The notes under the pieces: generated by a model
What the model was told of the DNA's origin: nothing
The model's database searches: none
What the model saw: only the letters and a program-made list of their open reading frames with translations
In this document: in pieces, positions 26,026 to 47,873 of the stretch
How positions within the stretch are numbered: position 1 is the first letter of the stretch
How the letters are laid out: each line of letters begins with the position of its first letter
Position numbers and translations under genes: made by a program
Assembly (NCBI GenBank): GCA_903865745.1
Contig: CAIPKV010000073.1
Span: forward strand, 1 to 62,602
DNA length: 62,602 nt
Direction: 5' to 3'
Source of the DNA: an uncultured Verrucomicrobia subdivision 3 bacterium
GTDB lineage: Bacteria > Verrucomicrobiota > Verrucomicrobiia > Limisphaerales > UBA11358

Positions 26026-26033
26026 GGAATACC

Positions 26034-26397
26034 ATGCAACTTGATCCGGCGGCGGTTAAAAAATTGTTCGGGAGGTGATGGCTAAACGCATCGGTGCGGC
26101 CACGCCAATTTCCGCCGCAGCGAAAGTCGGTTTCTTCGTGGATGGCGGCGAATGCAGCATCAATCCGCACGATGACATTTGCAAAAGGGAGATCATGCTC
26201 GTCGGCAGTTGGCCATACAATATCCGAATGTCTACCACTTTCTGCAACTGGCGGCACGGATTGGTATTCCGGTGAAAAAATTACTCACCCATCGCTTTCC
26301 GTTGGACCGCATCGCCGAGGCGTTCCAGACGAACATCCGGCAGGAAGGCATTAAAATCGTGGTCGAAAACCAGAACTTCCACCCTCGGTGCCCATAA
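26034..26397 (+). pseudogene. Decayed zinc-type alcohol dehydrogenase remnant
   Basis: No intact frame is present, but pieces of a medium-chain dehydrogenase/reductase can be read. A short frame from ATG 26034 (QLDPAAVKKLFG) stops at once. From about 26075 a second frame reads AKRIGAAT, then KVGFFVDGGECSINPHDD and REIMLVGSWPYN, the end of a nucleotide-binding domain. The frame then shifts at about 26215 to YPNVYHFLQLAARIGIPV and LTHRFPLDRIAEAFQTN, the usual C-terminus of this family. At least one frameshift and an internal deletion are therefore present. Standing just behind the rhamnose operon, the original enzyme may have processed lactaldehyde or a related alcohol; this is a guess from position. 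Confidence 0.7.
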
Positions 26398-26654
26398 ATC
26401 TTAATCTGGACTCACCGTGAATCATCTCTCTCTTCTCGTGAACAACACTCCCCGCGCGAAATCTTAAACAGAAAAGCCCCGGAGCCGGGCAGTTTGTCAC
26501 AGGTGGAGGCCGGATGGTATATAGACGGCACGACCTTGACAAACTGACTGGCGACATACCATTGAATCTGGATTCGCGCGCGTCCTGATTGGTGCGACTA
26601 CGCCCCTCAACGGAATGACTTTGGGTTAATAAGTGAAACGTAGATTTCCGCACG
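26398..26654. other. Intergenic junction between rhamnose operon and accessory island
   Basis: 257 bp without a supportable gene, lying between the plus-strand catabolic operon and the minus-strand TraM-like gene. It contains a small GC-rich hairpin (described separately). No second copy of the serine tRNA 3' end found at 34946-34974 is visible here, so the left edge of the island cannot be placed. Confidence 0.5.
26471..26491 (-). terminator. Possible Rho-independent terminator of the tra-like operon
   Basis: On the minus strand the sequence reads GCCCGGCTCCGGGGCTTTTC, a short GC stem (GCCC with GGGC) around a six-base loop followed by four Ts. It lies about 165 bp beyond the stop of the TraM-like gene, in the right orientation. 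The stem is short, so confidence is limited. Confidence 0.4.
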
Positions 26655-27248
26655 TCAGCGATATTTGAATGCAATGACCACGCCGACACCGAAACCAATC
26701 ACGATGCCGATAGCAATCAGTCCGAGCAAGGCCAGCCAGTCTCGTCTGATTTGCAAACCGGAGATGCGGGCATCCAGTTCCTCGCAGGTTTTGTGAAATC
26801 TTTCGCTGGCGGCTTTGAGATCGTTCTTTACGCGATGATGGGCGGAAACCCCGTCGTCCAGATGCCTTCTGATATCCATGGCGGTGGCTCCGATTTCCTT
26901 CAGCTGGCTGCGAAACGAACCGGAAGCCTGATTCAAAGCCTCGGTATGAACTTTGACGATGTTGTTTAATTCCCCGGTTTGCTCCTCACCAACGGCGGAA
27001 AGATTACCGATCAGCGCAGCGGTCTGCCGCCGGTATTCGGCCAGATGCAATTCAATCAATTTGCGGGATTCATTGACCGCCTGTGGCACCAGCGCCGCCG
27101 CGCGCCATTGCGCTCGCGTCAGCATCACCAGTTGGACGGGGAATCCATCTTCATCCCCGTCACTCCATTCGACCAAAATCTTCCGCATCCGTTTGGCTTC
27201 TTCGGCGGAAAGCCCGTTGCACAAAAAATCAAAATCCGTGTCCTCCAT
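26655..27248 (-). CDS. TraM-like coiled-coil protein with C-terminal membrane anchor
   Basis: 197 residues from ATG 27248, chosen because a GGAG ribosome site lies just ahead of it; a TTG at 27260 is the alternative. The protein is acidic at the start (EDTDFDFLC, SDGDEDGFP), has a long helical coiled-coil middle, and ends in one membrane segment (LALLGLIAIGIVIGFGVGVVIAF) with a basic tail. IncP plasmid RP4 TraM has a similar plan, a helical protein with a C-terminal transmembrane segment, and follows traL as here. The similarity is in architecture and gene order, not in obvious residues. It starts one base after the TraL-like stop, indicating tight coupling. The TraM role in conjugation is poorly known; it may tether a transfer complex to the membrane. 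Confidence 0.65.
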   Translation of the reverse strand: MEDTDFDFLCNGLSAEEAKRMRKILVEWSDGDEDGFPVQLVMLTRAQWRAAALVPQAVNESRKLIELHLAEYRRQTAALIGNLSAVGEEQTGELNNIVKVHTEALNQASGSFRSQLKEIGATAMDIRRHLDDGVSAHHRVKNDLKAASERFHKTCEELDARISGLQIRRDWLALLGLIAIGIVIGFGVGVVIAFKYR

Positions 27249-27249
27249 A

Positions 27250-28068
27250 TTATTCTCCAAAGTTCAATTGCGGCTGTGGTTCGGCTTTCGCCTTTTCCTT
27301 CGTCGGCACGGATTTTTCCTTGGGAACAAATTCTGTCGGTAACAACAAATCGGCGATGGTGTCGTATTGTCGGAATAATTTCTGCATCGCCCATTGGATT
27401 TCCCCGGCGAGCAACCGCTCCAAGTGACCGGCCTCAACGTGCGACAGTTCGGCAAAGCTCAAACCGCGCTTGGCGATGGCCTCGGCCTTTTCAATCGCCA
27501 GCAAGGTTGTTGGTGTTACGGCTGGCAACGTCACGGACTTCGCGCCGAACTCCAGTAACTGTTTTTCCAGTTGCGAGCCTTTGAACAAATCCCCACGCGC
27601 CTTGGCGGGATTGTTGACAATGCAATAGTCCACGCGGTCGCCCGCATAGAGAAACAGTCGCCCGGCGTTGGTCATGCTCTCCGTGTCGTCAGTCGGGAAC
27701 AGGAAAAATGTCAGTCGCACGCCTTGTTCGGCGCACACGTCCAGCACCTGCAATTCCTCCAAAGCGCCCAAGATCAAAGCGTCGGCCTGGGCGCGAGTGT
27801 CAATGACGTGAACGGGTGCGGAATCTTTCAACACGCGGCGGAACAAGCTTAACAGAGCCGTCTTACTCTCGTGTTCGTTGCCGAGGTGATAGGAGCGCAC
27901 CGCTTGCGGGTGCCGGTTGGCAAATGTGTGATGTCGGTCGTCGAGGTCGGAGCCATTCCACGGCACGCCGAGCTGGTCGAGCCAGGCGGTGCGGAATTCG
28001 GCTTCAAAACTTTTGCCGAGATTGCCTTTGGATTGGGGATTGAGGTGGATGCGTCGGGTGGTGTTCAT
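27250..28068 (-). CDS. TraL-like ParA-family ATPase with altered P-loop
   Basis: 272 residues. The start RRIHLNPQSKGNLGKSF parallels the IHxxLQGKGGVGKS deviant Walker A motif of TraL/ParA ATPases, keeping Lys14, Gly18, Lys19 and Ser20 but with Asn16 in place of the second glycine. Further matches in order are VHVIDTRAQA, the VDYCIVNNPAKARGDLF strand with FKGSQLEK, and the late LSFAELSHVEAGHLERLL and FRQYD. In RP4, TraL lies between traK and traM in the leading operon beside oriT, and the same order is seen here. The C-terminus is a charged tail (KEKSVPTKEKAKAEPQPQ). Its start overlaps the preceding TraK-like stop by ATGA. It may help position the transfer machinery or DNA; whether it binds ATP with Asn16 is open. 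Confidence 0.72.
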   Translation of the reverse strand: MNTTRRIHLNPQSKGNLGKSFEAEFRTAWLDQLGVPWNGSDLDDRHHTFANRHPQAVRSYHLGNEHESKTALLSLFRRVLKDSAPVHVIDTRAQADALILGALEELQVLDVCAEQGVRLTFFLFPTDDTESMTNAGRLFLYAGDRVDYCIVNNPAKARGDLFKGSQLEKQLLEFGAKSVTLPAVTPTTLLAIEKAEAIAKRGLSFAELSHVEAGHLERLLAGEIQWAMQKLFRQYDTIADLLLPTEFVPKEKSVPTKEKAKAEPQPQLNFGE

Positions 28069-28430
28069 AGTTTTGTGGGATCGTTTAGTTTGATGTTTTC
28101 ATGACTCGGTTGCCGGAATGAACGGGGCGTTGGCGTAGCCGCCAGCACCGGCCTGCTGGCCGATGCCGATGGGTTCACCGGAGCCGGTTGCACCATCACT
28201 CCGCCGTCCTCCCAGTGAGGGCGAGCTTGGCGTTTCAGGTAGCGCCGGTAAAATTGGTGCAATCCCTGAAACGTGATGACGCAACCTTTCTCGGTGCGGA
28301 GCAGCGCGGCGATTTCCTGCCATGTCTTGCGGTGCCGGCGTTGTTCGTGAATGAAGTCCACGAACGATTCTAGCCGGCTGCGATACGCGCGCCCGCCGCC
28401 ATGCTGGTCATTTCTGGTTTCCGAATCCAT
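28065..28430 (-). CDS. TraK-like putative oriT-binding protein
   Basis: 121 residues. The front half (ESFVDFIHEQRRHRKTWQEIAALL, FQGLHQFYRRYLKRQARP, both shortened) is a helix-turn-helix-like basic region. The rest is a Pro/Ala-rich tail ending NIKLNDPTKL. RP4 TraK has the same plan: an N-terminal DNA-binding half with a tryptophan-containing helix, a Pro/Ala-rich spacer and a short C-terminal motif of the FNPTPDKKDL kind. It is the first gene of a three-gene operon (TraK-, TraL-, TraM-like), and the 822-bp stretch just upstream carries phased GTTGAA boxes that could be its binding sites. TraK in RP4 binds next to oriT and bends it. The assignment rests on architecture and synteny. Confidence 0.65.
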   Translation of the reverse strand: MDSETRNDQHGGGRAYRSRLESFVDFIHEQRRHRKTWQEIAALLRTEKGCVITFQGLHQFYRRYLKRQARPHWEDGGVMVQPAPVNPSASASRPVLAATPTPRSFRQPSHENIKLNDPTKL

Positions 28431-28530
28431 TCACCGTCAGTTTATCCCGGCCAATGATGGTGGTGTTAGCGAGTAGCGGGCGAGTTGAGGCGGGAAAATG
28501 GGCAAGTTAATGGCGATAACTTTTCTGAGC

Positions 28531-28640
28531 ATTGAAAGGCGTTGAATCGCCGGTTGAAACCGGTTGAACGGTGTTGAACCGTGATGTTGAAAGATGTTGA
28601 ACCGCGTTGAATTCATCAACGCCCTTCAACGCATTTCAAC
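28531..28640. repeat. Helically phased GTTGAA iteron-like array
   Basis: Eight TTGAA-type boxes in direct orientation begin at 28531 (ATTGAA), then GTTGAA at 28541, 28553, 28563, 28573, 28586, 28596 and 28606. Spacing is 10, 12, 10, 10, 13, 10 and 10 bp, close to one helical turn. They are followed by the inverted box TTCAAC at 28625 and 28635, again 10 bp apart, and a partial ATCAAC at 28615. Such a layout is typical of cooperative protein binding on one face of DNA. It begins 101 bp upstream of the TraK-like start codon, so autoregulation or oriT nucleoprotein assembly are likely roles. Confidence 0.8.
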
Positions 28641-28848
28641 ATGGTGATTTCGGCCGCCGGCGCATTGCCGAAAAACCTACGCGAAACCGTAGGGGTGAGG
28701 CGTCCACCTTCAAGCAGACGAATAGGAGGCCAACCCATTTGCATAAAATCCGACCGGTATCGGTCAAACACTAATGTTCATTGCCAACATTGGGCGATGG
28801 TTGATTGGATGAAAATTGATCTCGTGTCGCGCTGATCGTGTCGCGCTG

Positions 28849-28918
28849 AATGTCCGTTTCTGAAACCGGAGCGCAACGAAGCGGCTGTGGAGTAAGCGAG
28901 GTTTTAGAAACGGACATT
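28849..28918. repeat. Inverted repeat with 13-bp perfect arms
   Basis: AATGTCCGTTTCT at 28849-28861 is matched by its exact reverse complement at 28906-28918. Pairing continues inward with GAAACC against GGTTTT (one mismatch), giving about 19 paired positions around a loop of about 32 bases. It sits within the non-coding stretch upstream of the TraK-like operon. MobF relaxases recognise an inverted repeat beside nic, so this is a candidate, but the large loop is not typical of that signal. Confidence 0.6.
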
Positions 28919-28957
28919 GAGGGCGTGACAGACTTGGTTCAGGTCACCTGCCGGTGA

Positions 28958-29002
28958 TTTGTCTGCGCGGTTTGTGAGGCACGAGCAAACCGGGCAGTCA
29001 AA
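28958..29002. repeat. Hairpin repeat, copy 1
   Basis: TTTG, CTGC and CGGTTTG on the left pair with CAAACCG, GCAG and CAAA on the right around the 11-base loop TGAGGCACGAG; only two positions of 17 are unpaired. It is followed by GCGCCGTAATC. A second hairpin at 29193-29238 has the same loop and trailing bases but altered paired stem bases, so the structure itself appears to be conserved. Confidence 0.65.
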
Positions 29003-29192
29003 GCGCCGTAATCCCACCGTTCAATTAAATCTCGGTTTGTGCCTGCTGGATTGCCTACGCACTGAACGGGCGTGCTGAAACCGGCAGCGAAACGGAGCAG
29101 GTCGGGAGTGGCATGAACGGACGACGGTGGAGTTGCGCGCGGTTGCAGAAAGACCGATGAGTGCCCGAACGTCTAGGATTTGTTTGCGGCGA

Positions 29193-29238
29193 TTGGTCTG
29201 GCGGGTTTGTGAGGCACGAGCAAAGCCCGCCAGTCCAA
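29193..29238. repeat. Hairpin repeat, copy 2
   Basis: TTGG, CTGGCGGG and TTTG pair with CAAA, CCCGCCAG and CCAA around the same TGAGGCACGAG loop as copy 1, with one mismatch and one bulge. The trailing bases read GCGCCGTCATC. It lies 14 bp beyond the stop of the nucleotidyltransferase gene (minus strand), so it could also act as that gene's transcription end, though no T run follows. Confidence 0.65.
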
Positions 29239-29252
29239 GCGCCGTCATCACA

Positions 29253-30017
29253 TCAGATGGAAACGCCCTTGGATTTTTTATAGCCCTGTTCCAATTGCTG
29301 TTCCTGAAACCGTTTGATCTTCTCGTTCTGGCTTTTGACAATGGCAGTCAGCGGCAGAATCTCCTGCCAATTGATCAGATGCTTTGTCGCAATTTTCCGG
29401 GCGCGATTATCAGTTGTCAGTTTCAACACTTGATTCCCTGCGCCGAGCCAGTGCCTTGCCGGAATCTCGCCGCGTTCGACTCGTTGCAGGAATTCATCCA
29501 GAAACGCCCGGACACAGGGCAGTAGAATTTTCAGGTGCGGCACATCGTGACGCTTTTCCTGCGGCACACTGGCGACCAGTTCCAGTTTGCAGGCCAGCAA
29601 TGAAATGGGGTCAATCACGCGGATGGTTTTCCCATTCCACTCTGTTTGAACTGACGATTCGTCCACTGAACCCGAAACCCCAGGAATCCGTCGGACCACT
29701 TCAATGGCTGACTTCAGGTCGCCGATTTGGAAAGGAATGACTCCGGCCAATGCGGTCATTTGCACCTTGGGCGGATAACCGGGAGCCAGATCCAGTTGCC
29801 GGGCGATGCGCTGGACATCAGCGGTCCCGCCTTTGAAATCGATGTCCTCGCTGGTGAACGGCTGTAATGATACAAGCTGTGGTTCGGTGGCCAGATAGTG
29901 TTCCGCCCAATAGTTGACCGCCTGACCGCCGATGAGGAGATAGGGTTGGCCGGTGGCGTCGCGGATGTTGAGGACTTCCGAAAATTGCTGGAGGGAAAAG
30001 CCCACGGTTACGCCCAT
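29253..30017 (-). CDS. Nucleotidyltransferase-fold protein (AbiEii/MNT-like)
   Basis: 254 residues. The N-terminal part carries a nucleotidyltransferase signature: YLLIGGQAVNYWAEHYL with the GG motif and, about 20 residues on, SEDIDFKG with the paired acids. Middle strands include TIRVIDPISLLACKL. The C-terminus is basic and helical (KSQNEKIKRFQEQQ, QGYKKSKG). Proteins of this fold next to a small partner often form toxin-antitoxin or phage-defence pairs (AbiE, MNT/HEPN), but no HEPN or AbiEi-type partner is clear here. The gene overlaps the small upstream gene by 10 bp, which suggests coupled translation. It is probably cargo of the mobile island. Confidence 0.72.
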   Translation of the reverse strand: MGVTVGFSLQQFSEVLNIRDATGQPYLLIGGQAVNYWAEHYLATEPQLVSLQPFTSEDIDFKGGTADVQRIARQLDLAPGYPPKVQMTALAGVIPFQIGDLKSAIEVVRRIPGVSGSVDESSVQTEWNGKTIRVIDPISLLACKLELVASVPQEKRHDVPHLKILLPCVRAFLDEFLQRVERGEIPARHWLGAGNQVLKLTTDNRARKIATKHLINWQEILPLTAIVKSQNEKIKRFQEQQLEQGYKKSKGVSI

Positions 30018-30211
30018 TTAGCCATGGCGCGGGCAACCTGTTTGAAATTGGTTATGCGCCACTTGGCCCCATCTCCGACGAGTGAAGCCCGTTGCTGTTG
30101 GGCCGCTGCTGCTGCCGGACTGCGGCGGGCTCGGCGCGCAGCCGCCATGCGGCTGTTCGCTTCCTGTCGTTTCACTGCATTGAAATCCACCGTCTTCACA
30201 GACCAACACAT
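30008..30211 (-). CDS. Small basic protein coupled to the nucleotidyltransferase
   Basis: About 67 residues from ATG 30211 (GTG 30199 is an alternative; the frame stays open up to 30310). The chain is rich in Arg and Ala (RMAAARRARRSPAAAAAQQ) and ends GAKWRITNFKQVARAMAKWA. It overlaps the nucleotidyltransferase start by 10 bp. A small protein translated just ahead of such an enzyme is usually its partner or antitoxin; no family was recognised. No strong ribosome site precedes either start. Confidence 0.5.
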   Translation of the reverse strand: MCWSVKTVDFNAVKRQEANSRMAAARRARRSPAAAAAQQQRASLVGDGAKWRITNFKQVARAMAKWA

Positions 30212-30331
30212 ACCGCAATCTGAATAAGGAAGCAAGTTTGCGCCGGCATCGCATCTTCCACGTCCATCCGAAAACAACGCGACCCGCCAGATGATTCCAG
30301 CGGGCCGCACAAGTTCAATTCGGTGTGCGTC

Positions 30332-30625
30332 TCAGGTCGCTTCCACCAATTCAATCCGCACGGCTTTGCCCAACGCCCGCGCCACTCGCGACACCGTGGA
30401 CAAACGCACGTCTTCGGCATGGTTTTCCAGCCGCGAAATCGCCGACTTTTTCGTCTTGGTGATCCGGGCCAGTTTTTCCTGGGTCACACCGGCCTGTTCG
30501 CGGGCTTCCCGCAGCATCAGCCCAATCTTGAACTCGGCGTAGCCCGTTTCAAAATCATTCGCAAACGCCTTGTCCGTGCGTTTGCGCCGTTCGATGTAAT
30601 TTTCCACGTCGTTTTTCATAGTCAT
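30332..30625 (-). CDS. higA: XRE-family antitoxin (HigA-like)
   Basis: 97 residues from ATG 30625, which overlaps the toxin stop by ATGA; an ATG at 30619 is an alternative. The C-terminal half is a Cro/C1-type helix-turn-helix: [20 protein letters not shown], then [20 protein letters not shown] (parts shown). The order toxin first, antitoxin second is that of higBA systems. It should neutralise the HigB-like RNase and repress the operon by binding its promoter. This is a typical stability module for a mobile island. Confidence 0.85.
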
Positions 30626-30969
30626 TTCTTTCGGCTCAAATAGTCGCGCTTGCGTTGTTCCGCCAGCGCCAGTTCGCGTTCCGGGGTTTTCTGCGTTTTC
30701 TTCGCAAATCCATTCGTCAGGATGATCAAACGCCCGGCATCCCAAAAGCCCAGCAACCGGAACGCGTCGCCGCCAAATTCCGCCCGCACTTCCCAAAGAT
30801 CATCGCGTCCCTCCAGTTTTTTGAAATACTGTTGCGGCACACGCGGAAGTTCTTGCACGGCGCGCAGCACCCACAAGACCTTTTGCACCTGCTTCGCATT
30901 CAGCGAATCCAGAAACTCTTCCACCGGACAGGCTCCGGCTGCGGTCCGGTAATATTGGACTTCCAACAT
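30622..30969 (-). CDS. higB: RelE/HigB-family toxin
   Basis: 115 residues. The sequence follows the HigB/Gp49 family: an N-terminal [21 protein letters not shown], a central [21 protein letters not shown], then [19 protein letters not shown] and [19 protein letters not shown], with the lysine-rich tail typical of ribosome-dependent mRNA interferases ([20 protein letters not shown]). It probably cleaves mRNA on the ribosome when not bound by the antitoxin encoded next. It is the first gene of the pair. Confidence 0.88.
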
Positions 30970-31064
30970 TGCGACAGGTTAACACAAGTGTGAACCTCTG
31001 TCAAACGTGGTTGCCCACCGTTTTTGCCATGCATAGCAAGGTGAAGTTGTTCGCGGCCTGATTC

Positions 31065-33881
31065 TTAAACACGGACACCGTGCGATTTTGAAACCTGCTG
31101 TGTTTGCGCCTGACGAATCGCCTCGTGTTCCCGCGCCCGCCGGCTATTGGTCATCAGCACCGCCGTGCGTTTGCCCCAGCGTTTGGCGATCAGCCGATAA
31201 CGCGGGTCGTTTTGATAATGCGCCGCCAGCAGGTCCAACACCGACAGCCGATCCCCGCTGCGCGTGATGTTCTCGCGTAGCTGCTCCTTGTCGCTGGTAA
31301 AAATGTGAATCCCTTTCTTGCCGCGCGAAATCGTGACATACCATTGCTGCTGGCTCGTGGCGGCTTTCGCCGCTGAATCGGAAAACAACACCTGATCCAA
31401 AGACTTGCCCTGCGAGGCGTAGGACGTGATGGCGTAACCCCGGACGAACTGTCGAAAGTTTTTGTCCAGCACCCGGCCGTCCGCCAGCGTGATGCGCCCG
31501 TCGGGGTGAACCATCTTCACCGTCACCAGTTCGCCATTGACCAGCTTCCGTTTTTTCACACTGCGACCGTTTGCCTTGAGTTGCAGTCTGTCGCCTGAAG
31601 CCAATGCCAGTTCCTTGCGCTGGCAGGCCGTCAGTTTGTCCAGTTGCTTGAACGGAATGGGAACCGTCCGCGAATCAGCTTCTACCAGCAAATGCGTGTC
31701 CATAATCTGTTTCAACTTCGCCGATTCTCCGGCCTTGAACCCGCGCACGTCGCGATTGAACACCAGCACGGTGTTGGCATCATAAGAGCGAGCATCACGC
31801 TTTTGCGCGTCGGTCAAGTCCACTGGCTGAAAAGCCGTTACCGTGATTTCCATTTCACTAATCAATTTCTCCTGCTTGAGCGCGGTGCGAATGGCGTCAT
31901 TCACTTTATGAATCTCATTCCAACTTTGGGAAACGATCACGGTGGATTGATGTTCTTTTACCAGTTCCAAGTAACGCGCCGTCAGCTTTTCATGTTTGTC
32001 GGCCAGCGTGCAGGACTCGATGGTTTTCATTTTTTCCAGTCGCTCGAAGGATTCGGTGAACTTGCCGTCGCGGGCTTCCGTGACCGCTCGGCGGTATTCC
32101 CGGATGCGCCGGCGTTCCTCAATGGATTTGGCCAGCGCAGGATTTTGGCGACGGATGTTTGTCAATTCCACGGGGCGAATACCGGAATGTTTTTCAATCG
32201 CCCGCAAGGCGTCAGTCGCCTCGACTGCACCGTGTTGGCGGGTATCACCTGACAATACCAGCCGTGCCTTTCGCTGCACCGCCAATCGGATCAACTCCAA
32301 CATTGTCTTGCCACCAAGCTGGCCGGCCTCGTCCACAATGACGACGGAACCTTCAGCTAGTTCGCGTTTGGCCAGAAAACTGGCCACGGTCGCTGGCGAC
32401 GGAAATCCGTCGCGTTCCATGTCCAGCACCTGCTGACGCTGCGGCGCAAGGACGACCACGCCGCGCCCGCCATCGCGGATTTGTCCGACCAGTTCACGCA
32501 GCACAAAACTTTTGCCCGTGCCGGCACCGCCGCGAAAGACCGAGACGCGGTTGCGGTTGGATAACAGCGCAGCGAGCGCTTCACGTTGTTCTTCATCCAG
32601 CTTGGGATCAAACGGCTTTGGCTCCCACACCAGTGGATAACAATCACTGATGCCCTGCCTGACGGCGCAAACAATTTGCAGCTCGCGTTCGAGATGCTCG
32701 CGCGTGGAAACTTGGCCGGGATGATGGTCAAATCGCAGATAGCCGCGCTGCCGCGTGACGGCTTGAATATCAGCCAGTGAAACGTTCTGACCTCGGACCC
32801 GTTCGAGCGCGTGACGCCACAGCTCATGCTCATGAACGATGGAGCGGCGTTCAAACAGATGTTGTTCCGCCCAGGCGACCGCCTGCTCGGCAACTTTCAC
32901 GTCGGAAACCAGCTCGGGAGATTTTGCCACCGTCAAATGATTCAATGACGATATTTCATCCGCCGTCATCTGGCTGGCCCACACGGTTTGCAGTTTTGCC
33001 AGACCGATGTCCCTGATTTTCCGGGGACGTTCCTTGTGCGCGATGTTCTCCCGGATGGCCGCAAGGTTGCCGTCCGCTTTTTCCGGCTCGCGGGCCAGTA
33101 GTTCCCGCGTTTGCTGGTCAATCTCCCGATGCCGCTTGGAAAATTTATCTATCAATGCCGGTGTAACGCCCTTGATCTCAAAATCGCCGCGCGTTTTGTT
33201 TTTAATCTGATAACCAAACTTCACCAGCTCGCGGGTCAGCTCATGGTAATAAACATTCTCGACAAATTTCTGGGCGGCGAACATTTCGTGATTTTGCAAC
33301 GCCTTCCATTGCTTTTCGATGGCATCAAATGTGGCGTTGAACACGATGCAGTGCGTGTGCAGGTGCGGATCAAGTGCCCGCGACGAGTCATGCCGGAATA
33401 TGGCCGTCACCAAGTTGCCCGTCTGCCGGTCGGTGCATTGGTTATTTTTGCGCACCCTAGTTGCGGCGAAGGTTTGCAATTGATTCATGGCCAACGTCAC
33501 CGCCTGCTCGTGCGCCTCGACGATTCGCGAGTCGTCACCCACCAGCGCGGCGATGGAGACCGATTTGGGCGGAGAAAAAGTAAAGTCATAAAACACTCGG
33601 CGATTGGCCGTCTCGCGTTCCTTGCCATCCGCACCCATCTCGGTTCGGGTGGTCTTTTGCCGGAGCGTCAGCCGTTCGCCGGTCTGCGGATGAAGATTTT
33701 CACACAGGCGGGTGAACTCGTCGGCGGTGGTAATGCCATTCAGTCCGAGTTCGGCGGCACCCTGGCCGAACCAATGGCCGGGGACGGTTTGCCCCTCGGC
33801 ATAGTAATCGCCGACCGCCAGATGTTCCTTAAAATACTTTTTGGCGTCACCAAGATTATATTGCGCTTTGGGGGCGAGCAT
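31065..33881 (-). CDS. MobF-family conjugative relaxase-helicase (TrwC/TraI/TraA type)
   Basis: 938 residues. The N-terminal relaxase has the tyrosine pair Tyr26-Tyr27 in GDYYAEG, the metal-binding triad His173, His175 and His177 in DPHLHTHC, and FYDFTFSPPKSVSIAA. A superfamily I helicase follows from about residue 440 with Walker A FRGGAGTGKSFVL, Walker B SVVIVDEAGQLG, SGDTRQHGAVEATD and the C-terminal GYAITSYASQGKSLDQVLF and YVTISRGKKGIHIFTSD. It would nick oriT, stay bound to the 5' end and unwind the strand for transfer. It is preceded by two small genes and has no coupling protein beside it, so the island looks mobilisable, not self-transmissible, at least in this window. Confidence 0.94.
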   Translation of the reverse strand: MLAPKAQYNLGDAKKYFKEHLAVGDYYAEGQTVPGHWFGQGAAELGLNGITTADEFTRLCENLHPQTGERLTLRQKTTRTEMGADGKERETANRRVFYDFTFSPPKSVSIAALVGDDSRIVEAHEQAVTLAMNQLQTFAATRVRKNNQCTDRQTGNLVTAIFRHDSSRALDPHLHTHCIVFNATFDAIEKQWKALQNHEMFAAQKFVENVYYHELTRELVKFGYQIKNKTRGDFEIKGVTPALIDKFSKRHREIDQQTRELLAREPEKADGNLAAIRENIAHKERPRKIRDIGLAKLQTVWASQMTADEISSLNHLTVAKSPELVSDVKVAEQAVAWAEQHLFERRSIVHEHELWRHALERVRGQNVSLADIQAVTRQRGYLRFDHHPGQVSTREHLERELQIVCAVRQGISDCYPLVWEPKPFDPKLDEEQREALAALLSNRNRVSVFRGGAGTGKSFVLRELVGQIRDGGRGVVVLAPQRQQVLDMERDGFPSPATVASFLAKRELAEGSVVIVDEAGQLGGKTMLELIRLAVQRKARLVLSGDTRQHGAVEATDALRAIEKHSGIRPVELTNIRRQNPALAKSIEERRRIREYRRAVTEARDGKFTESFERLEKMKTIESCTLADKHEKLTARYLELVKEHQSTVIVSQSWNEIHKVNDAIRTALKQEKLISEMEITVTAFQPVDLTDAQKRDARSYDANTVLVFNRDVRGFKAGESAKLKQIMDTHLLVEADSRTVPIPFKQLDKLTACQRKELALASGDRLQLKANGRSVKKRKLVNGELVTVKMVHPDGRITLADGRVLDKNFRQFVRGYAITSYASQGKSLDQVLFSDSAAKAATSQQQWYVTISRGKKGIHIFTSDKEQLRENITRSGDRLSVLDLLAAHYQNDPRYRLIAKRWGKRTAVLMTNSRRAREHEAIRQAQTQQVSKSHGVRV

Positions 33882-33905
33882 TGTGGCCGGCGTAAATCAA
33901 GCGGC

Positions 33906-34238
33906 TTAAATCAGTTCACGAGCAGCCGACGCGCTCATCTGAATCACCACACCATTTGCTCTTTTGGATTTGCGGGCATTCTTGGCCTGCCAGTGCTGGC
34001 TCAAAGTTGCGGTGGCCCGTGACAGCCATTCTTCGTCGTCCTCCAGTTCCAGCACCTTTTTCCGGCTGAAATATTTTTCACTGCTGGGGGCGCGTCGCCC
34101 CAGCGGTTTCAGCAGGCCGCGCGCGACTAGAATCGGAAGATCATGCGGTTTGAAACCCAGACAGGCCGCGACCTGCACAATGTTCATCCGGGCAGGCAAC
34201 CGGGTCAGATTCAACACCTCTTTCAGCTCGTTATTCAT
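33906..34238 (-). CDS. Small helix-turn-helix protein upstream of the relaxase
   Basis: 110 residues from ATG 34238, which has a good ribosome site (GAGAAGAAAC); the frame is open upstream to 34268. The segment MNIVQVAACLGFKPHDLPIL resembles a MerR/excisionase-type helix-turn-helix, followed by LVARGLLKPLGRRAPSSEKYF (in part) and a basic C-terminus (AKNARKSKRANG). It lies 24 bp upstream of the relaxase and is probably cotranscribed. A role in regulating or assisting the relaxase is inferred from context only. Confidence 0.7.
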   Translation of the reverse strand: MNNELKEVLNLTRLPARMNIVQVAACLGFKPHDLPILVARGLLKPLGRRAPSSEKYFSRKKVLELEDDEEWLSRATATLSQHWQAKNARKSKRANGVVIQMSASAARELI

Positions 34239-34348
34239 AGTGTTTCTTCTCGGTGAACGTTTTCTCAAAAAACGGATTTTTCAACTCTGCCGGAAATGCG
34301 GCGCGCGGACTTGTATCGCATACACAAAACGAATGGCGCATATCTCAG

Positions 34349-34579
34349 TTACTCTGGTGGTGATTGATTCGGCGGTCGCGTTGTAAAGATAATGGCGGGA
34401 ATGATTGTGACAGGGTTTCCCGGTGGCTGTCTCCGCCGCAAGCCGCCGCCCAACACCCAGGCAATCACCGCCAGAGACAGCCAAACGAAAACGAGGTAAA
34501 GAGAAACGCCGTAATTTGCGATCAGGGCGTCCAGAAAGTTGAACACGGGATTCAGCACATCCGCCGGATTTAAGTTCAT
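34349..34579 (-). CDS. Small membrane protein of the mobilisation region
   Basis: 76 residues from ATG 34579, selected for its GGAG ribosome site about 8 bases ahead. It has one hydrophobic stretch, YGVSLYLVFVWLSLAVIAWV, possibly two closely spaced ones with the preceding NFLDALIA, then a basic GGGLRRRQPPG and a proline-rich tail. It is the outermost gene of the minus-strand island. No family was recognised; small membrane proteins are common in mobilisation clusters. Confidence 0.6.
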   Translation of the reverse strand: MNLNPADVLNPVFNFLDALIANYGVSLYLVFVWLSLAVIAWVLGGGLRRRQPPGNPVTIIPAIIFTTRPPNQSPPE

Positions 34580-35153
34580 GGTTGGTTCTCCGTTTTCAGT
34601 TTGTAAGTCTCGCGTCCAAATCGCAGCCGTTGCTTTTGCCAGTCTCGCCAGCACGCTTTTCTAAAGCGGTGACTCCTTGTGGGATCCGCCCGCCAAAATG
34701 CCCGACCAGTAAGCGCGTTAAATTCGATTGCGCCGCGCTCAAGTAGAATGTTATGTTCAAAGTCATAATGGTCGGTGGAGAATCAGCTTGCCGTCCGAAC
34801 AATGGCGAGGATGGCGGCTTTGATTGGCGCGGAAAGTTTTGCCCAAGCGGTGACTACTTGAGACAAGTCAGGACAGGAAGGGATTGAATTTCGGGAGTCT
34901 ATTCGGGAGTCTCCGTGAGATTTCCCTTTATTTACGGGCAAAACTGTGGGGTTCGAATCCCCCCCTCTCCGCCACGCGACTTTCGTATAATAAATTTAAT
35001 TTTAATACCATGCAGACGCTTTGCAAAGTATTAACCATGACGGTAGCTGGCAACATGCGCATCGGTATCAGAACTAGTTTTAAGCCTTCTGCTGTGGACT
35101 TTTTGTCGAAACTGCGTGCGTCAGCAAAGTCCGTCTCGTACCCTCTGCTTTGA
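34580..35153. other. Island edge: repeats, tRNA 3' fragment and leader of the next gene
   Basis: 574 bp without a supportable gene. Two near-identical 17-bp copies of AAGCGGTGACT(C/A)CTTG lie at 34663-34679 and 34844-34860. Two tandem TTCGGGAGTCT units occur at 34890 and 34902, 12 bp apart, close to the tRNA fragment, and could be integrase arm sites. After the fragment, 35097-35135 can form a hairpin (GGACTTT with AAAGTCC) in the leader of the adenylate-kinase-like gene. Confidence 0.5.
34946..34974 (+). mobile_element. tRNA-Ser 3' end fragment, probable attachment site
   Basis: The bases GGGGTTCGAATCCCC followed by CCCTCTCCGCCA are the T-arm and acceptor 3' strand of a serine tRNA, including the encoded CCA. 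The matching 5' strand (GGAGAGG) and the D and anticodon arms are absent from the preceding 100 bp, and the T stem has one unpaired position. A lone tRNA 3' end at the boundary of a mobilisation island is the typical att site left by tRNA-targeting tyrosine integrases. The intact tRNA gene and the integrase are not in the window. Confidence 0.7.
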
Positions 35154-47471: not shown

Positions 47472-47582
47472 ATTAGCCGTGCAATTTCCTCAATAAAATT
47501 CACATTTTTATCTTGGCGTACGGTTTCCAGCCAGCTTTAATGAGGGCTCGGCAACATTAACAACAAAAAACATAATACTATC

Positions 47583-47873
47583 ATGGCTAAAGCACTGACC
47601 AAATCACAAATCGCATCTGAAATCGCTGAAAAGAACGGCATCACCAAAAAACAATCCGTCGAGATTCTCGAACAACTCGCTGGCCTCGCCTACAAGCACG
47701 CCAAGGACTCGTTCACCATCCCCGGTCTCGGCAAACTCGTTTTGGTCAATCGCAAAGCCCGCGTCGGCCGTAACCCGGCGACTGGCGAAACGATCCAGAT
47801 CAAGGCCAAAAAGGTCGTGAAATTCCGCGTCGCCAAAGCGGCCAAGGACGCGATCTTGGGCGTGAAGAAATAA
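47583..47873 (+). CDS. hup: HU-family DNA-binding protein
   Basis: 96 residues, the usual HU size. It shows ALTKSQIASEIAEKNGITKK at the start, the dimer strand SFTIPGLGKLVLVNRKAR with the conserved arm (ARVGRNPATGETIQIKAKK), and a basic C-terminal helix. HU binds and bends DNA non-specifically and compacts the nucleoid. The arm keeps the proline of RNPATGE that intercalates at bends. It is a single gene with its own terminator immediately after it. Confidence 0.95.
   Translation: MAKALTKSQIASEIAEKNGITKKQSVEILEQLAGLAYKHAKDSFTIPGLGKLVLVNRKARVGRNPATGETIQIKAKKVVKFRVAKAAKDAILGVKK

Follow-up and report, generated by a model that had tools for sequence, protein, structure and literature searches.

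The 62,602-nucleotide contig CAIPKV010000073.1 of an uncultured Verrucomicrobia subdivision 3 bacterium (hereafter the window; contig C73 of a 3.63 Mb draft genome in 87 contigs) carries at positions 26436–34974 what is probably an integrative mobilisable element (IME, or 'iMOB') that depends on a helper for its transfer. It comprises a MobF relaxase gene, an operon of the TraKLM/Stb type, a site that fits a MobF origin of transfer (oriT) and cargo genes, and it ends at a tRNA-Ser fragment (Table 1). The initial annotation of this DNA, which had described an IncP-like TraK-TraL-TraM trio combined with a MobF relaxase, picked out a genuine element and interpreted it correctly for the most part. 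As judged from sequence comparison, the element is part of a network of integrative and conjugative elements (ICEs), IMEs and satellites in environmental Verrucomicrobiota that have one type of oriT in common.

Relatives were sought across 59 genomes, and at most 14 relaxase candidates were scored per genome. Twenty-four loci have named records; 22 of these are Verrucomicrobiota, many of them Limisphaerales or 'subdivision 3', and two are given just as 'bacterium'.

The relaxase and its gene neighbourhood

The relaxase gene is intact and encodes 938 amino acids that match Pfam TrwC (3.8e-86) and NCBIfam MobF (4.4e-71); comparison with R388 TrwC gives 29% identity (E 6e-75). The Tyr26-Tyr27 pair and the three histidines His173/175/177 (HLHTH from residue 173) are at the positions that had been read from the sequence at first, and Tyr16 is present as well. 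The protein therefore has each of the features by which MobF membership is judged, namely a TrwC domain, N-terminal tyrosines, an HxHxH triad and a helicase. The small conserved protein F09, encoded upstream of the relaxase, is perhaps a DNA-binding protein.

We next considered which genes accompany the relaxase. Thirty-one full-length copies lie in 36 loci; 14 of the copies are flanked on each side by 4.5 kb or more, and neighbours of these were sought within 7 kb. A stbA-like gene was found near 11 of the 14, stbB and stbC near 10 each, a coupling protein gene near seven, an integrase gene near five and F08 near four. The relaxase and the operon genes thus stand together in most of these copies; their lying on separate elements would have counted against the original proposal. 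A scan of the genomes for the same gene set, also proposed at that stage, found relaxase relatives in 27/59 (up to 13 matches in one genome, fragments included) and TraL-like relatives in 19/59.

A TraKLM/Stb-type operon with an IncP-like TraL

Three overlapping minus-strand genes lie in the order K-L-M, as had been proposed, and the whole operon recurs in a second copy of the element in the same genome (on contig C5; 89% nucleotide identity). None of the three proteins has a Pfam or NCBIfam match above cut-off. Profile comparison through relatives nevertheless identifies the middle gene: a profile of 12 TraL-like relatives, window included, matched TraL of the IncP plasmid R751 at 98.9% (E 3.5e-17, 221 columns), whereas an ordinary ParA used as control gave 79% (E 1.6e-5, 40 columns). 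The window's subgroup alone matched R751 TraL weakly (37%, E 3.6e-4, 224 columns), as it did the two plasmids together (23%, E 9e-4). It is joined to the other Verrucomicrobiota sequences at 99.7% (E 7.6e-26), and these in turn match R751 TraL at 99.0% (E 2.5e-18), against 33.6% (E 4.4e-4) for R388 StbB alone and 80% (E 1.4e-5, 33 columns) for the R751 ParA control. The AlphaFold2 model (predicted local distance difference test score 81.5, predicted template-modelling (TM) score 0.82) has ParF, ParA and MipZ as its nearest solved folds, at moderate TM-scores (0.44–0.58 for ParF/ParA). On these comparisons the middle gene is predicted to encode a ParA-type ATPase of the TraL/StbB family, and the family is nearer to IncP TraL than to R388 StbB. 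The P-loop of most relatives in the larger TraL-like group is KGGVGKS, the type that Guynet 2011 (PMC3098194), in the part drawn on here, assigns to the RP4 group of StbB/TraL; the window has KGNLGKS.

The outer two genes fit the trio less well. The first has weak matches to R388 StbA (40%, E 2.9e-4) and to R751 TraK (10%, E 3.2e-3). The third, predicted to encode a tail-anchored coiled coil, has no sequence match to R751 TraM; small size and a membrane anchor at the C terminus are all that the two have in common. Of the proposed trio, then, gene order and TraL stand, TraK is weak and TraM finds no match.

A candidate origin of transfer

A hairpin followed by GGTRRGGCKTSYC was first read upstream of stbA in eleven elements. 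A regular expression for it (stem of at least 5) found 17 sites in 70 sequences (940,687 bp), two of which (L029, L062) look spurious, compared with 0–1 in five first-order shuffles. Among nine sequences with ungapped stems, four of the six stem pairs change on both sides, with 13 double-change cells against 3.2 ± 1.6. A covariance model built from the nine returned 21 hits with E below 0.01 across 62 sources (909,872 bp), made up of the nine training sites, one duplicate contig and 11 independent hits. Each of the 11 has a stbA-like or F09 gene within about 1 kb, and the window's own site, which is not in the model, is one of them (E 4.5e-5). Across the 59 genomes the model found 69 sites in 24 genomes; a site is present in 20/27 genomes with a relaxase and in 4/32 of the others (Fisher 2.6e-6, kinship uncorrected), and a relaxase or stbB gene starts within 5 kb of 30/69 sites. 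Towards its 3′ end the motif tracks the relaxase tree in part, the window's clade, like its neighbours, having GCGTCC.

Some features of these data count against an oriT. The regular expression was derived from 11 upstream regions, where 10/17 of its sites lie, and the nine stem-test sequences had been picked for a good stem. For the remaining 39/69 model sites no relaxase or stbB gene starts within 5 kb, and 7/27 relaxase genomes have no oriT-like site. Because the model finds no site below E 0.01 in several loci (L024, L029, L030, L031, L062, L063 and L067, among others), some relaxase copies lack such a site or use another.

The hairpin and motif might instead act on the stbA promoter as an operator or attenuator, since in most elements with a stbA-like gene the site lies 19–360 bp from it. 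We consider this improbable: the site is present in L026 and L028, where no stbA-like gene stands within 7 kb of the relaxase; in six satellites (see below) sites stand on both sides of stbA; and the R388 site has a like layout. MobF sites in general consist of a hairpin and then a short single-strand stretch. Taken together, the site in the window fits a MobF oriT.

The non-coding DNA around the site has further structure. The iteron array upstream of the traK-like gene (fold z −4.4) is present by eye also in L005, L022, L025 and L027. Two conserved blocks lie on the 3′ side of the proposed nic and are possibly, as a speculation, single-strand initiation or promoter sites; the L026 and L028 relaxases are just 62–63% identical to the window's, though the second block is 85–87% identical there. 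An integron attC or repetitive extragenic palindrome (REP) origin was considered for the repeats 28952–29016 and 29187–29252 and set aside, the exact loop being confined among the loci to window DNA, with looser matches in relatives. With Rfam at gathering thresholds, tRNA-Lys was the sole match.

Extent of the element, copies and selection

The C5 copy matches 26436–29084 at 89% and 30298–34251 at 90%, with different DNA in between, so that the cargo of the two copies differs. The start of contig C15 carries F09, F08 and a tRNA-Ser 3′ end, and is probably the missing right end of the C5 copy. A further copy, L072, is 90% identical over 30066–34592 and carries a tRNA-Ser fragment of the same kind. 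The window, C5/C15 and L072 copies thus have F08 and the tRNA-Ser 3′ end in common and differ in their flanks. In the comparison of the window with C5, the four transfer genes have low ratios of non-synonymous to synonymous differences (pN/pS): relaxase 0.13, TraL-like gene 0.03, TraK-like gene 0.33 and third gene 0.12. Because the coding differences are mostly silent, the transfer genes have been under selection since the two copies diverged, and selection thus acts on the reduced form of the element.

No integrase or coupling protein was found in the whole window by tblastn with four integrases and three coupling proteins of relatives, and the contig has no match to PF10412, PF03135 or PF19044. 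The copy thus has what is expected of an IME with its own relaxase, namely a relaxase and a sequence-based oriT without a type IV secretion system (T4SS). It does not have the coupling protein and T4SS of an ICE, nor the integrase and flanking att repeats of an IME, as there is one tRNA-Ser end and no integrase in this copy.

These absences would also be expected of a decayed ICE, a remnant stripped of coupling protein, T4SS and integrase and now immobile. The left end without a tRNA is consistent with such decay, and some relatives are indeed broken, with split relaxase frames in L027/L065 and L064. We regard decay as unlikely, though it is the strongest of the alternatives that we considered: differences between the window and C5 are mostly silent in all four transfer genes (pN/pS 0.03–0.33), the same F08/tRNA-Ser end is found in different flanks in three copies, and the cargo differs between two of them.

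The right-neighbour gene was found in nine genomes including the window's own (at least 83% identity), and stretches were taken from seven of the others, but the insertion site cannot be rebuilt because the left neighbour is not syntenic. Beside the left end, 26026–26390 resembles a broken gene of what we take to be the alcohol-dehydrogenase type. The left boundary without a tRNA is common to the window and C5 copies. With respect to the tRNA fragment, the F08 arm is oriented differently in the window and in the G031:C54 element described below. Elsewhere in the window, 47580–47861 is 77% identical at the nucleotide level to a part of the C5 copy's cargo region (L005 12383–12664).

Table 1. 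Features of the predicted element, with coordinates in the window.
Feature	Coordinates	Strand	Basis or remark
Left end, defined by homology: similarity to C5 copy starts, flanks differ	26436–26654	.	copy comparison
Third gene, TraM/StbC position; C-terminal membrane anchor; likely ATG 27248	26655–27260	-	size, anchor
TraL/StbB-family ParA-like ATPase (predicted), P-loop KGNLGKS	27250–28068	-	family profiles, AlphaFold2 model, fold comparison
TraK/StbA-like small protein (weak support)	28065–28430	-	profile comparison
Iteron array upstream of traK-like gene: 7 direct GTTGAA repeats 10–13 bp apart and 2 inverted	28541–28640	.	
oriT-like site: hairpin CCTACG/CGTAGG, then GGTGAGGCGTCCACC (proposed nic region)	28669–28709	+	
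Conserved non-coding block, long inverted repeat (z −5.4)	28842–29009	.	
Second conserved non-coding block, hairpin repeated from first block	29059–29252	.	84–87% nucleotide identity in L026, L028, L040
Cargo: 254-amino-acid protein, no significant family match; other DNA here in C5 copy	29253–30017	-	
Cargo: XRE-type antitoxin	30332–30625	-	HTH_3 3.2e-10
Cargo: Gp49-type toxin	30622–30969	-	PF05973 3.1e-22
MobF relaxase-helicase (TrwC-like)	31065–33881	-	Pfam, NCBIfam, R388 TrwC comparison, catalytic residues
F09, small conserved protein upstream of relaxase	33906–34268	-	no family match
F08, small hydrophobic protein, at attachment-site end of several of these elements	34349–34582	-	
tRNA-Ser 3′-end fragment (attachment-site remnant), element/chromosome junction	34950–34974	+	

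Related elements and possible helpers

Tyrosine integrases adjoin tRNA genes in eight loci (L022, L025–L027, L029–L031 and L036), four of them confirmed by PF00589. One relative is an ICE of about 55 kb on G031:C54, bounded on one side by a tRNA-Ser 3′ fragment (at ~1600 of L034) and on the other by an intact tRNA-Ser(GCT) gene (L051), with genes for an integrase, relaxase, StbABC, coupling protein and VirB4, 5, 8, 9 and 10. Its VirB4 matches PF19044 below cut-off only. At this one tRNA-Ser(GCT) gene a 10-kb IME (L055:10525–L034:1574) stands in tandem with the 55-kb ICE (L034:1600–L051:17987). A single contig, G044:C114, likewise carries genes for a relaxase, StbA, StbB, a coupling protein and a T4SS. 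L066 and L068 have StbA-B-C-relaxase on one strand, the window's gene order circularly permuted. The statement of the initial annotation that coupling and secretion genes are absent therefore holds for this copy and not for its relatives, of which some have a coupling protein gene and some a T4SS.

The window's genome has another relaxase (53%) on contig C80, beside StbABC and a coupling protein, whose gene is completed by contig C50 through an overlap of 141 identical bases. Contig C79 begins with a T4SS cluster in which P-loop_TraG scores 37.6 bits (cut-off 25.8), T4SS 24.9 (24.7) and TrbI 71.2 (35), with CagX below its cut-off; the VirB proteins of G031:C54 are 51–73% identical to those of C79. 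Absence of a T4SS had at first been suggested by PF03135 (VirB4), which matched in 0/59 genomes, and was overturned by PF19044, which matched in 9/59, the C79 protein alone being above cut-off. Hidden Markov models of VirB genes built from some of the loci were also scanned, and a separate BLAST check was made. Many PF10412 matches span only the first 35–150 positions of the model and are probably other ATPases. A protein of 1725–1754 amino acids follows the T4SS genes in both clusters (L049:7710–12887 and L051:11928–17192), and the very long protein of the C79 cluster matches helicase and methyltransferase models of defence systems.

Satellites without a relaxase

Eight pairs of oriT-like sites lie 0.35–1.4 kb apart, always minus then plus and hence pointing outward, and 6/8 flank a stbA-like gene. 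No relaxase was found in the stretches L111–L117 or between the tRNA-Ser fragments of the G031:C54 IME. L111, L112 and L113 each carry a tyrosine integrase and are bounded by 24-bp tRNA-Ser 3′ repeats 10.0–11.3 kb apart (24/24, 24/24 and 23/24 identical, respectively). Their distal arm beside F08 resembles the right end of the window element, in L112 almost letter for letter. The paired sites fall into two classes: L111–L114, L117 and the G031:C54 IME (L055/L034) pair a class A site (GGTAAGGC or a near variant) with a class B site (GGTMRCGCGTGC); the pairs of L115 and L116 include no class B site. Class B sites, of which the ICE neighbouring the G031:C54 IME also has one, score low in the covariance model (E 7.6e-5 to 1.5e-3 per genome), the L055 site excepted. 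Genome G033 has four oriT-like sites and no match to the window relaxase.

We lean, by a modest degree, towards the view that MobF ICEs and IMEs are accompanied by tRNA-Ser satellites with a stbA-like gene and two outward oriTs, the window element being a relaxase-bearing member of the tRNA-Ser group. Because the two oriTs belong to two sequence classes, either of two relaxase lineages could mobilise these satellites. A comparable arrangement is seen in the pWBG749-type oriT mimics of Staphylococcus, which in the sections of O'Brien 2015 (PMC4652767) used here are relaxase-less and have two oriTs, which always lie on opposite strands and mostly belong to different subfamilies. The satellites differ in being chromosomal, in having MobF-type sites around a stbA-like gene, and in belonging to Verrucomicrobiota.

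Discussion

In the mechanism that we propose, the relaxase would bind the hairpin at 28669–28709, nick just 3′ of it and remain on the 5′ end; the TraK/StbA-like protein would bind the GTTGAA iterons, and the ParA-like TraL/StbB would carry the element DNA to the membrane. The relaxosome would then be passed to a coupling protein and T4SS given in trans by a related ICE, for which the coupling protein on C80/C50 and the T4SS cluster on C79 are candidates in the same genome. For excision and integration an integrase would have to be supplied in trans, as the window copy has none. Three observations weigh against this interpretation: the left end has no tRNA and the integrase is missing, so that the window copy may be stranded; TraK homology is weak and TraM homology absent; and the C79 T4SS contig is unlinked to the relaxase contigs in the draft genome.

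The element resembles known systems in part. With the IncW plasmid R388 (trwABC-oriT-stbABC) it has in common a TrwC-type MobF relaxase of similar length, a stbABC-type operon beside the transfer origin, and iterons in the position of the stbDRs upstream of stbA. It could on these grounds be an integrated relative of the IncW MOB-Stb region, R388-like in all respects, but there is little to recommend so close a kinship. TraL/StbB is nearer the IncP type, and R388 StbB is of the SGxxGK subgroup; the coupling gene comes after the Stb operon in most relatives and not with the relaxase gene (L025 being an exception); the oriT motif is dissimilar to the R388 nic region and opposite in direction, the R388 nic pointing toward stbA; integration is near tRNA genes; and R388 is a plasmid with its own T4SS and coupling protein. 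With IncP (RP4/R751) traKLM the likeness is in gene order and in the ATPase, closest to R751 TraL. IncP differs in having the MobP relaxase TraI with TraJ beside oriT, whereas the window has MobF, an unrecognisable TraM and a weak TraK. Like canonical IMEs, which have a relaxase without coupling protein or T4SS, relatives of the element lie at tRNA 3′ ends with tyrosine integrases, and helper dependence is likewise deduced.

Guynet 2011 (PMC3098194), in the sections consulted, describes stbABC with MOBF11, StbB subgroups and stbDRs, treats StbA/StbB and TraK/TraL of RP4 as homologues, and calls R388 StbC an orphan. Since R388 has one, there is no novelty in a stb/traKLM-type operon next to a MobF relaxase. 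RP4-type StbB/TraL goes there with MOBP plasmids and MOBF11 falls in the other subgroup, so the TraL/MobF pairing of the window differs from those listings. The suggestion of a distinct kind of mobilisable element is thus borne out in that the element is, by sequence, mobilisable and not conjugative and in its unlisted pairing, and not in the operon as such. In the part seen, the IME review of Guedon 2017 gives no canonical IME with a MobF relaxase; the terms iMOB and iOriT are from a 2024 PLoS Biol review, as excerpted. Open-licence literature on relaxases and integrative elements, MobF IMEs and Akkermansia ICEs yielded no description of such elements in Verrucomicrobiota. The available text of an ocean mobilome paper mentions Verrucomicrobia once, and that of a Vibrio paper with MobF plasmids and ICEs/IMEs leaves the picture unchanged. 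What is new is not the trio and MobF together but an IME of Verrucomicrobiota that is built on MobF, has an IncP-type TraL and belongs to the network of ICEs, IMEs and satellites.

The pairing of TraL with TrwC suggests that the Stb/TraKLM module has been exchanged between relaxase classes. If the satellites are as proposed, they would correspond, on the chromosome and with MobF, to the dual-oriT mimicry of staphylococcal plasmids. With a sequence model of the oriT, helper-dependent islands without any mobility gene become findable, and it can be asked which relaxase moves which satellite.

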